DNA from: Rhodospirillales bacterium BBD 1991-14 | GTDB lineage: Bacteria; Pseudomonadota; Alphaproteobacteria; Kiloniellales; Kiloniellaceae | Direction of reading: 5' to 3' | DNA length: 64,000 nt | Assembly (NCBI GenBank): GCA_001657395.1 | Contig: LYSY01000001.1 | Coordinates: 992,001-1,056,000, forward strand | Shown: one piece after another, positions 23,802-56,240 of the stretch | Numbering within the stretch: position 1 is the first letter of the stretch | Layout: the number at the start of each line of letters is the position of its first letter | Notes under the pieces: generated by a model | What the model saw: only the letters and a program-made list of their open reading frames with translations | Database searches by the model: none | Told to the model about the DNA's origin: nothing | Translations under genes and position numbers: made by a program

Positions 23802-25088
23802 ATGAAATCCAGCAAGACCCCGGGCTTCGAGACCCGCATGATTCATGCCGGCGCGCAGCCGGAGCCGGTGACGGGAGCGCGGCAGACGCCGATCTTCCAG
23901 AACACCTCCTACGTCTTTCACGATGCCGATCACGCGGCCTCGCTGTTCAATCTGCAGACCTTCGGCTTCATCTATTCGCGCCTCACCAACCCGACGGTCG
24001 CCGCCCTGGAGGAGCGTCTGGCCAGCCTGGAGGGCGGGCGCGGCACCACCTGCTGCGCCTCCGGCCATGCGGCCCAGATGCTGGTGTTCTTCGCACTGAT
24101 GGGACCCGGCGACCGCTTCATCGCCTCCAACCGCCTCTACGGCGGCTCCATCACCCAGTTCGGCAAGACCTTTCAGAAGTTCGACTGGCAGGTCGACTTC
24201 GTCGACGTCGACGACCCAGAGAACGTGCGCCAGGCACTCACCCCGAAGACCAAGGCCATCTTCGTCGAGAGCCTGGCCAACCCGGGCGGTGTGGTCAGCA
24301 ACCTGGAAGCCCTGGCGGAAGTCGCCGGGGAGGCCGGCGTTCCGCTGGTGGTGGACAACACCATGGCCACCCCCTACCTCTGCCAGCCCTTCGACTGGGG
24401 CGCCGACCTGGTGGTGCACTCGACCACCAAGTTTCTCTCCGGCAACGGAACATCGATGGGCGGCGCGGTGGTCGATTCCGGTCGCTTCGACTGGTCGGCG
24501 AGCGACAGGTTTCCTGGCCTGGCGGCGCCTGAGCCCGCCTATCACGGCCTCAGTTTCTACGAGACCTTCGGCGACATGGCCTTCACCATGCAGGCCCATG
24601 CCGTCGGCCTGCGCGACCTCGGCGCGACCATGGCGCCGATGAATGCCTTCCAGACCCTGCTCGGCTGCGAGACGCTGAGCCTGCGCATGGAGCGGCACTG
24701 CGCCAACGCCAAGCAGGTCGCCGCGTTCCTGGAGAGCCATAACGCCGTCGACTGGGTCTCCTGCGCTGCGCTCCCGTCCAGCCCCTATCACGGGCTCGCA
24801 GAGAAGTATCTTCCGCGCGGTGCCGGCTCGGTTTTCACCTTCGGTGTCAAAGGCGGCTACGAGGCCGGCGTGAAGGTCGTGGAGGCCTGCGAGCTGTTCT
24901 CCCACCTCGCCAACATCGGCGATACCCGCTCGCTGATCCTGCATCCGGCCTCCACCACCCACCGCCAGCTGACCGAGGAGCAGCGCCAGGCGGCCGGTGC
25001 CGGGCCCGAGGTCGTCCGGCTGTCGATCGGCCTGGAGACCGTCGATGATCTGCTTGCCGATCTCGATCAGGCCCTTACCGCAGACTAA
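23802..25088 (+). CDS. metY: O-acetylhomoserine aminocarboxypropyltransferase (sulfhydrylase), copy 1
   Basis: A 428-residue Cys/Met-metabolism PLP enzyme. It has TRMIHAGAQPEPVTGARQTP at the start, YSRLTNPTVAALEERLASLE, and the PLP-lysine site in VVHSTTKFLSGNGTSMGG. The product resembles O-acetylhomoserine sulfhydrylase, which makes homocysteine from sulphide, or an O-succinylhomoserine variant. A second, diverged enzyme of the same family lies at 54915-56240. No riboswitch precedes this copy. It is last in the plus-strand run that starts with the enoyl-CoA hydratase. Confidence 0.9.
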   Translation: MKSSKTPGFETRMIHAGAQPEPVTGARQTPIFQNTSYVFHDADHAASLFNLQTFGFIYSRLTNPTVAALEERLASLEGGRGTTCCASGHAAQMLVFFALMGPGDRFIASNRLYGGSITQFGKTFQKFDWQVDFVDVDDPENVRQALTPKTKAIFVESLANPGGVVSNLEALAEVAGEAGVPLVVDNTMATPYLCQPFDWGADLVVHSTTKFLSGNGTSMGGAVVDSGRFDWSASDRFPGLAAPEPAYHGLSFYETFGDMAFTMQAHAVGLRDLGATMAPMNAFQTLLGCETLSLRMERHCANAKQVAAFLESHNAVDWVSCAALPSSPYHGLAEKYLPRGAGSVFTFGVKGGYEAGVKVVEACELFSHLANIGDTRSLILHPASTTHRQLTEEQRQAAGAGPEVVRLSIGLETVDDLLADLDQALTAD

Positions 25089-54633: not shown

Positions 54634-54662
54634 TTGACATTGGGCCGGCTTCGTCGTTCTTT
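54634..54662 (+). promoter_or_regulatory. Promoter of the riboswitch-led metY-type gene
   Basis: A perfect -35 TTGACA is followed after 17 bases by a weaker -10 TTCTTT. Transcription would start near 54669-54671, exactly at the base of the first SAM-II-like stem, which fits the short leaders of SAM-II transcripts. The preceding part of this 514-base gap (54401-54633) shows no other element I can support. Confidence 0.6.
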
Positions 54663-54670
54663 GCTGGTCC

Positions 54671-54726
54671 AGCGCCGATTTGGTCTCAGCTTGCGGGCGC
54701 TCAAGAAATGCGGCTAAACGAGTGGT
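54671..54726 (+). promoter_or_regulatory. SAM-II-like riboswitch aptamer 1
   Basis: P1 pairs AGCGCC (54671-54676) with GGCGCT (54696-54701). The loop and tail hold the SAM-II core in order: GATTTG, then CTTGC, then AAGAAATGCGGCTAAA. The arrangement aligns closely with the metX SAM-II aptamer (same GATTT...TTGC...GCGC...AAATG.GCTAAA order). A short pseudoknot CTC (54685-54687) with GAG (54720-54722) is possible. It sits just before an intrinsic terminator, so it would stop transcription when S-adenosylmethionine is high. Confidence 0.72.
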
Positions 54727-54727
54727 G

Positions 54728-54759
54728 AAAACCGCCCGGGTCAGCCGCGGCGGTTTTTT
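54728..54759 (+). terminator. Attenuator terminator between the two aptamers
   Basis: A stem AAAACCGCC / GGCGGTTTT with a 12-base loop and a run of six T. The bases CGCCCG (54733-54738) in the left arm could instead pair with CGGGCG (54694-54699) in the 3' half of aptamer 1, an antiterminator. SAM-bound aptamer 1 would therefore favour termination (inference). Confidence 0.8.
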
Positions 54760-54796
54760 GCTGAGATCGGTACGTGGCCTGACCCTCCCAAGGGGT

Positions 54797-54868
54797 TCGC
54801 GGTGATTTGAGGGGTAGCTTGCTCCGCGTCAACAAAGGCTAAAAATCCACTCCTGGGTGGGCCCCTCT
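54797..54868 (+). promoter_or_regulatory. SAM-II/SAM-V-like riboswitch aptamer 2 with extra hairpin
   Basis: P1 pairs CGCGG (54798-54802) with CCGCG (54824-54828). The core GATTTG, GCTTGC and CAACAAAGGCTAAAA is present in SAM-II order. The pseudoknot pairs GAGGGG (54809-54814) with CCCCTC (54862-54867), six base pairs. A small hairpin CCAC/GTGG (54847-54860) is inserted between GCTAAA and the pseudoknot strand. No terminator follows; it ends about 46 bases before the start codon, so control of translation is more likely. Confidence 0.75.
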
Positions 54869-54914
54869 GGGAGATAACATCTTAAGACGACCGAAAGACC
54901 ACGAGGGCCCAGAC

Positions 54915-56240
54915 ATGACCGATTCCCCGAAGAAGACGCTGAACCCGGAAACCCTGGCGCTGCACGCCGGTTACCGCAGCGACCCGCACACCGGCTCCGT
55001 CGCCGTCCCCATCTATCAGACCACGTCCTACGAGTTCCAGGACACGGATCACGCGGCCAACCTCTTCGCGCTGAAGGAGCTTGGCAACATCTACACGCGG
55101 ATCATGAACCCGACCTGCGACGTGCTGGAGCAGCGGGTTACGGCGATCGAGGGTGGCGCCGCCGCGCTGGCGGTCTCCTCGGGCCAGGCCGCCTCCGCCA
55201 TCGCCATCCAGAACATTGCCCGCTCCGGCGACAATATCGTCAGCTCGACCGACCTCTATGGCGGCACCTGGAACCTCTTCGCCAACACCCTGAACACCTT
55301 TGGCATCGAGGTGCGCTTCGTCGACCCGAGCGATCCGGAGAATTTCCGCCGCGCCACCGACGAACGGACGCGCGCCTACTACGCCGAGACCCTGCCCAAC
55401 CCGAAGCTGGTCGTCTTTCCGATCGGCGAGGTGGCCGCCATCGGCAACGAGCTGGGCGTGCCGTTGATCGTCGATAACACGGCCGCCCCCGTCATCTGCC
55501 AGCCCTTCAAGCACGGTGCCCACATCGTCGTTTACTCGACGACCAAGTACATCGGTGGACACGGAACCTCCATCGGCGGCCTCCTGGTCGACGGCGGCAC
55601 CTTCGATTGGGAAAAGCATGGGGAGCGCTTTCCGCTGCTGACCCAGCCGGACCCCAGCTACCACGGCGCCGTCTGGACCGAAGCCGCCAAGCCGCTGGGG
55701 CCCATCGCCTACATCCTGAAGGCAAGGGTCACGCTGCAACGCGATCTCGGCTATGCCATGAGCCCCTTCAACGCCTTCCAGTTCATTCAGGGCCTGGAGA
55801 CCCTGCCGCTGCGCATCCGCGAGCACAGCCGCAACGGCGCACGTGTGGCGGAGTTCCTGCAAAGCCACGCGGACGTGACGAACGTCATCCATCCCTCGCT
55901 GCAGGACGGCGAGAACCGACGCCGGGCCGATGCCTATCTGAGCGGCGGCTACGGCGGCCTCGTCGGCTTCGAACTGGCCGGCGGCAAGGAGGCCGGGCGC
56001 CGCTTCATCGACTCCCTGAACCTCTTCTACCATGTCGCCAACATCGGCGACGCGCGCAGCCTGGCGATCCACCCGGCGACGACGACCCATTCGCAGCTTG
56101 CCCCGGAAGAGCAGCTTGCGACGGGTGTGACGGACGGCTACGTGCGCCTCTCCATCGGGATCGAACACATCGACGACATTCTCGCCGACCTCGACCAGGC
56201 GCTGACGGCCGTACGCGGTTCCGCCGCTGCGGCAGAGTAG
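54915..56240 (+). CDS. metY: O-acetylhomoserine aminocarboxypropyltransferase (sulfhydrylase), copy 2
   Basis: A 441-residue PLP enzyme. It begins with [20 protein letters not shown] and has [20 protein letters not shown], then [20 protein letters not shown] (PLP lysine) and [20 protein letters not shown]. It makes homocysteine directly from O-acetylhomoserine and sulphide. The leader with two SAM aptamers shows that it is repressed by the end-product SAM. It is clearly diverged from the copy at 23802, which has no such leader. Confidence 0.95.

Follow-up and report, generated by a model that had tools for sequence, protein, structure and literature searches.

Two SAM-II riboswitch cores lie in tandem 5' of metY in a leader (54634-54914) within a 64,000-nucleotide stretch of a genome of the alphaproteobacterial genus Pelagibius, hereafter the window. 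Here, comparison with relatives identifies the second core (aptamer 2) as belonging to a distinct SAM-II subtype, widespread and mostly unannotated, which has one additional hairpin abutting P1 (P0) and another inserted after GCUAAA (P3). Aptamer 2 probably acts on translation, by way of a strand that matches the ribosome binding site (RBS) of its own gene, while aptamer 1 reads as an ordinary transcriptional SAM-II. Tandem SAM-II leaders of the terminator-plus-RBS kind have been described before; what is new is the subtype, together with its RBS-matching strand. The leader extends from the first base of TTGACA to the base preceding the metY ATG, and the following features were assigned:

54634-54639, + strand: TTGACA, -35 box of the likely promoter
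54671-54722, + strand: aptamer 1, SAM-II core
54722-54735, + strand: candidate antiterminator hairpin GUGGU/ACCGC (54722-54726/54731-54735)
54728-54759, + strand: intrinsic terminator, 9-bp stem (arms 54728-54736/54749-54757) and T run
54781-54797, + strand: P0 hairpin, abutting P1 of aptamer 2
54798-54843, + strand: aptamer 2 core (P1, GAUUUG, P2 5' strand, CUUGC, GCUAAA)
54845-54848, + strand: AUCC, proximal partner of the P2 5' strand GGGU (54812-54815), in the classical SAM-II place
54847-54860, + strand: P3 hairpin CCAC/GUGG (54847-54850/54857-54860)
54858-54864, + strand: anti-RBS strand UGGGCCC, complementary to 54905-54911
54862-54867, + strand: CCCCUC, distal P2 3' strand, partner of GAGGGG (54809-54814)
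54903-54911, + strand: RBS of metY, GAGGGCCCA
54915-56240, + strand: metY, O-acetylhomoserine aminocarboxypropyltransferase, 441 aa

An earlier note on this DNA had proposed a metY-type gene behind the leader, and its product indeed matches TIGR01326 with 607.1 bits against a cut-off of 495.1. A MetY-family paralogue with 47% identity to this product is encoded inside the window (23811-25085, + strand; contig 1015811-1017085), and the same genome encodes another with 72% identity (G000:C19:406900-408207), in whose upstream stretch, as far as it was read, no SAM-II core was found.

Aptamer 1 has the anatomy of Rfam family RF00521: GATTTG (54677-54682), CTTGC (54690-54694), GCTAAA (54713-54718), P1 AGCGCC/GGCGCT (54671-54676/54696-54701) and, after GCUAAA, a pseudoknot P2 that is merely 3 bp in the window (CUC/GAG, 54685-54687/54720-54722). 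Its predicted role as a transcriptional SAM sensor matches the type predicted for metZ of S. meliloti (PMC9373788, seen in part), and SAM-II members are mostly transcriptional according to the available part of PMC6061858. The strong terminator that the earlier note placed on aptamer 1 is present (-17.7 kcal/mol), and its equivalents in 45 aptamer-1-type leaders range from about -15 to -22 kcal/mol except in L047 and L050 (0.0) and L085 (-4.8). The candidate antiterminator overlaps both P2 of aptamer 1 and the terminator 5' arm, AAAACCGCC, and covaries with that arm in relatives (GUGGU/ACCGC, GCGGAU/AUCCGC, GCGGUU/GACCGC, CGGGG/CCCCG). Sub-threshold Rfam matches in this stretch, RcsR1 and Bp2_287 among them, were dismissed as following the GC-rich terminator hairpin. 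A distal partner of 7 bp for the P2 strand of aptamer 1, lying 3' of the terminator (54684-54690/54760-54766), was likewise rejected; it occurs in the window and L008 and is absent from L009-L013.

The likely promoter box lies about 30 nt upstream of aptamer 1, and 42 of the 45 aptamer-1-type leaders have CTTGAC no more than 48 nt before GATTTG, the exceptions being L047, L050 and L111, the last of which is a stray aptamer 2. A strict sigma-70 promoter scan found none. Judged from the box, transcription likely starts near 54668-54671, in agreement with the start near 54670 that had been expected.

Both elements score with the SAM-II covariance model, as predicted, but remain under its gathering score of 36: in a search of 421 bases RF00521 (SAM_alpha) gives aptamer 1 30.1 bits (E 4.8e-5) and aptamer 2 18.0 bits (E 0.096), and these are the two best matches of the whole genome. 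Aptamer-1 equivalents in L013, L024, L034 and L035 pass the cut-off. For aptamer 2, the Rfam cut-off marks only one of 39 loci, namely none of the aptamers 2 of 19 relatives and one (L261) of 20 loci from the class survey, the latter being 20 of 40 fetched regions. The SAM-II long loop model (RF01726), a family listed from Bacteroidetes and marine samples in the table of PMC2864571, shares its core with aptamer 2, yet scores it at 16.0 bits (E 2.1), below the cut-off of 44. The earlier note had also compared the second aptamer with SAM-V; that kinship is not supported, as the SAM-V model (RF01826) has no match in the leader up to E 10 and, in the accessible text of PMC6061858, the P3 of SAM-V sits elsewhere. 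Membership of SAM-V was rejected.

Aptamer 2 retains P1 (54798-54802/54824-54828) and the ligand-contacting motifs of SAM-II, GATTTG (54804-54809), CTTGC (54818-54822) and GCTAAA (54838-54843). The hairpin insertion described in the earlier note is real: P3 lies between GCTAAA and the 3' strand of a six-bp pseudoknot (54809-54814/54862-54867). The pseudoknot itself is present too, with a 3' strand that is C-rich, is not a Shine-Dalgarno (SD) sequence and belongs to the RBS-complementary strand. Furthermore, the G-rich P2 5' strand has a second, short partner directly 3' of GCUAAA. A covariance model (R1) was built from 20 metY leaders, 19 of which show both cores and one (L042) a single core; it scores aptamer 2 at 88.5 bits, the window itself being in the training set.

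In these 20 leaders, read from anchored motifs, the helices of aptamer 2 vary with pairing maintained: P1 as CGCGG/CCGCG, CCCGG/CCGGG or UCCGG/CCGGG, P3 in forms that include CCAC/GUGG, CCAG/CUGG, CCGCA/UGCGG, CCACG/CGUGG and CGUC/GACG, and distal P2 as GAGGGGC/GCCCCUC, GAGGGGU/GCCCCUC, UUGGGGC/GCCCCAG, UGGGGC/GCCCCG or GAGGG/CCCUC. Both partners of the P2 5' strand are present in all 20 and compete for it, the longer distal one pairing over 5-7 bp and the proximal one over 2-4 bp (GGC/GCC in 12, GGGU/AUCC, GGU/ACC and GGC/GUC in two each, GGGU/GUCC and GC/GC in one each). P0 ends at the start of P1 in 19 of the 20, with the best-scoring hairpin of L043 lying elsewhere. Across aptamer-2-type leaders, a P0 of at least five Watson-Crick pairs beside P1 occurs in 68 of 118, against a mean of 7.4 and a maximum of 13 in 50 shuffles; a similar hairpin precedes aptamer 1 in 5 of 50.

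A class-wide survey gave 59 unique elements (67 matches, less 2 unparsed and the duplicates), all 59 of which pair proximally at position 1 and 56 at position 2. The distal helix scores at least 4 in 37 and at least 3 in 52; proximal pairing is thus the more general of the two. The three elements that fail at position 2 (L270, L272, L292) each have a distal partner (GAC/GUC, GGAUUC/GAAUUC). A proximal P2 of at least 3 bp was in part rejected as a universal feature, given these failures and the pairing of position 3 in only 75 of 84 rows of a pattern-limited set, from which rows lacking G followed by C or A just 3' of GCUAAA were dropped, Pelagibius rows included, and into which at least five aptamer-1 rows slipped. 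Seven rows of the pattern set have A at position 3; none pairs proximally and four keep a distal A-U pair in strict register, so a single fold with P3 inserted into P2 would also fit.

The tandem arrangement reported by the earlier note is borne out by both cores being present in the window and by their recurrence as a pair 5' of metY across four families of the order. All 58 genomes searched, that of the window included, gave a MetY match. Among the first 30 metY loci, with 600 nt of upstream sequence read for each, two cores are present in 16 (again including the window), 7 have one aptamer-1-type core, 6 have none and one is cut by a contig end that leaves part of the second aptamer; four of the six coreless loci (L014, L021, L025, L031) have an aptamer-2-type element before an osmC-like gene upstream of metY. 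The next 20 metY places, which include fragments and a paralogue from the window's genome, gave 5 with two cores, 6 with one and 9 with none. Within the order, R1 has matches in 38 of 61 genomes (E up to 1e-3), and within the class Alphaproteobacteria in 68 of 385 sampled genomes (E up to 1e-4); by a permissive rule, GCUAAA is followed by a P3 of 4 bp or more in 62 of the 67 class matches examined. The insertion, which the earlier note thought worth comparing, is the mark of a widespread subtype and no local peculiarity. Many class matches carry a variant of GAUUUG, and 48 of the 67 have all core motifs as patterned. By pattern, 119 unique aptamer-2-type elements were counted among the loci collected, the scan of named genomes requiring GGG[CT]AGC and covering only the matches listed. 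At least 250 nt of upstream sequence was available for 110, of which 44 form a tandem with another core and the other 66 stand without one, and TTGAC lies 40-100 nt upstream in 37 of those 66. Counts are inflated by relatedness between leaders.

Several groups stand apart. Seven class elements (L260, L263, L271, L275, L282, L284, L285) have P3 and no clear distal P2 partner, and perhaps form a further subtype. An AT-rich group (L083, L090, L092, L146, L153), one member of which is titled Micavibrio, has in common P3 UAUGG/CCAUA and distal GGGGU/ACCCC, and its elements precede MetA-like or other genes. A contig titled Anaerolineae bacterium (L130) carries a Pelagibius-like metY with a tandem leader and is possibly mis-binned.

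The 3' side of P3 offers a probable link between aptamer 2 and the gene. GGGCCCA (54905-54911) adjoins the SD sequence, and its partner UGGGCCC overlaps P3 and the distal P2 strand. From 103 leaders with a plausible start, some of which are wrong (e.g. L057, L077, L086), 80 were used for folding and 77 for RBS swaps, the latter reduced to 59 by removal of near-duplicates. In these 59, the stretch from the P3 loop to the distal strand pairs better with its own RBS than with swapped ones (-13.88 versus -11.77 kcal/mol, z -6.4, 0/5000), and the same control is flat for P0 (z 0.0) and the core (z -0.9). Swapping leaves relatedness between leaders in place, but the flat P0 result makes it unlikely that relatedness is the whole cause. 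The effect is broad and moderate, with the own RBS in the best tenth in just 8 of 59 leaders. In the 45 non-metY leaders the signal covers the whole stretch (z -6.0, 0/3000) and resides in the P3 loop together with the upper part of the 3' arm (z -5.8, 0/3000); the distal strand has none (z 1.5), and the P3 5' arm and the core gave 90/3000 and 175/3000. The 14 metY leaders have a modest signal in the whole stretch (63/3000) and in the foot of P3 with the distal strand (45/3000), and no RBS match in P0 or the core by the swap control. The complementarity of the P3 3' side to the own RBS is what suggests that the second switch probably acts on translation; the earlier note had placed aptamer 2 close to the start codon, and its distal P2 3' strand ends about 48 nt 5' of it. 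In L131, two aptamer-2-type elements lie 1.2 kb apart on one contig (near 3848 and 5087), each with an RBS-complementary P3.

Genes behind aptamer-2-type elements, assigned by clustering and an NCBIfam match for one member of each cluster, serve for the most part in methionine synthesis or uptake and in sulfur assimilation. MetY, MetZ (O-succinylhomoserine sulfhydrylase), siroheme synthase CysG and CysH exceed their NCBIfam cut-offs; OsmC-like, NirA/sulfite-reductase-like, MetX (a fragment), MetA-like, MetN-like and DMSP-demethylase-like products fall below theirs. Starts of the reductase and MetN genes lie at least 168 nt 3' of GCUAAA. The element before the DMSP demethylase-like gene is in L101 (PRK12486, 388.6 of 410 bits), with which L076 clusters. 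Of L105, L061 and L078, the first has its element before a short reading frame, and the gene further downstream is presumably porphobilinogen-synthase-like. With sulfur genes as the context, repression by SAM is to be expected, as the SAM-riboswitch genes osmC, bhmT and metY of Pelagibacter rise on sulfur limitation (PMC5069961, seen in part).

These features allow a model to be proposed in which the leader is a two-stage, SAM-repressed device, with a terminator under aptamer 1 followed by an anti-RBS strand under aptamer 2; we would give it an even chance. The tandem anatomy, with the terminator on the first aptamer and the RBS-matching strand on the second, fits such a bi-mechanism leader. 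Transcription would begin at P1 of aptamer 1. Without SAM, bases 3' of GCUAAA would pair with the terminator 5' arm as an antiterminator, and with SAM the bases after GCUAAA would join P2 and the terminator would form. At the second stage the G-rich P2 strand of aptamer 2 would choose between its two partners: without SAM, distal GAGGGG/CCCCUC and P3 would hold the anti-RBS strand and metY would be translated, while with SAM the short classical P2 GGGU/AUCC would take the G-rich strand and the foot of P3, and the freed anti-RBS strand would cover GAGGGCCCA and stop translation. Sequence comparison establishes the cores, the terminator, P0, P3, the two complementarities and the agreement between anti-RBS strand and RBS; from these we infer the transcription start, that SAM binds both aptamers and that it favours the proximal form of the second. 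A proximal P2 this short has a precedent in the solved metX SAM-II, whose P2a is of 2 bp in the available part of PMC6061858.

The direction of the second switch is where the readings divide. Gene function and aptamer 1 favour SAM as the off signal, and the SAM-off fold uses the proximal P2, a partner present in all the metY leaders and nearly constant at the first two positions in the class. An unlikely, though by no means far-fetched, alternative is that P3 is simply inserted into a bound SAM-II whose form comprises P3 and distal P2, so that SAM would sequester the anti-RBS strand and expose the RBS, giving SAM-activated translation behind a SAM-repressed terminator. One fold would then satisfy most of the covariation, L270, L272 and L292 have a position 2 that goes with the distal partner, and the RBS helix of the window leader shares bases with P3 as well as with distal P2. 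Folding without pseudoknots agrees: over 80 leaders, RBS/anti-RBS pairing averages 0.61 in the free leader and 0.30 with the core, GCUAAA and distal strands blocked, and the SD is unpaired at 0.30 and 0.43 respectively, so that blocking frees the RBS and points opposite to the SAM-off model, if the distal form is the bound one. However, the downstream genes are ones that SAM should repress, the second stage would oppose aptamer 1, the RBS signal of non-metY genes avoids the distal strand and several lineages have no clear distal helix. The wider proximal support and the three failures at position 2 roughly cancel, and SAM-off is considered about twice as likely as SAM-on for aptamer 2.

In a reading closer to that of the earlier note, the distal pseudoknot, once bound, would itself obstruct ribosomes from its place close to the start codon, with no part for RBS complementarity. 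Translational SAM-V and metX SAM-II do place the SD in P2a (PMC6061858, in part), but the C-rich 3' P2 strand of this leader stops about 36 nt short of the RBS, and complementarity to the RBS is strongly above swaps over all leaders, making this reading rather improbable. It is a little more doubtful still that the ligand of aptamer 2 is another one, or that the aptamer no longer binds any and persists as a fixed leader structure; low Rfam scores would suit this, and the case for SAM binding is one of sequence likeness, yet a large set of elements, with helices that covary and sulfur genes behind them, retains GAUUUG (or a close form), CUUGC and GCUAAA. Both cores being under the Rfam cut-off might even suggest chance motif matches or remnants, a notion with almost no probability left, in effect refuted by conservation and covariation in four families of the order.

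The leader shares core motifs, P1, pseudoknot and the association with metY, metX, metA and metZ genes with RF00521 SAM-II, from which aptamer 2 differs in P0, P3 after GCUAAA, often a distal P2 strand, and the anti-RBS strand. The accessible text of PMC9481103 describes 44 tandem SAM-II leaders, with a terminator on the first and the second near the RBS in some; it makes no mention there of an inserted hairpin or RBS-complementary strand, and the present loci may be among them. The same text counts 149 SAM-II/SAM-V tandems in Candidatus Pelagibacter and marine sequences (see also PMC11508383, in part), which share with the window leader a terminator first, translation second and sulfur genes, although the window's second aptamer has no SAM-V match and its extra hairpin is placed elsewhere. 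No SAM-II with such an inserted hairpin was found in the available parts of PMC9481103, PMC2258182, PMC2704228, PMC6061858, PMC4239095 and PMC9373788, and a literature search returned nothing on riboswitches of Pelagibius or on SAM_alpha in Rhodospirillaceae. A 2014 survey with Rfam profiles placed SAM_alpha in Rhizobiales and Rhodobacterales only (PMC4239095, in part).

In its boldest form, the claim would be of a SAM-II subtype not yet described and common among those Alphaproteobacteria that lie outside the catalogued groups, whose inserted hairpin carries a strand that co-evolves with the RBS of each gene and which, placed behind a SAM-repressed terminator, switches translation on with SAM, giving a band-pass leader made from two relatives of one aptamer; this we regard as unlikely. 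Aptamer 2 offers a testable translational strategy for SAM-II, and its model could serve as an annotation profile. If the assignment is true, the subtype would place sulfate reduction (cysH), siroheme synthesis (cysG) and a sulfite/nitrite reductase-like gene of other alphaproteobacteria under the control of SAM, along with methionine uptake and a DMSP demethylase-like gene, and a SAM-II-type element before a DmdA-like gene would tie the breakdown of DMSP to the level of SAM.
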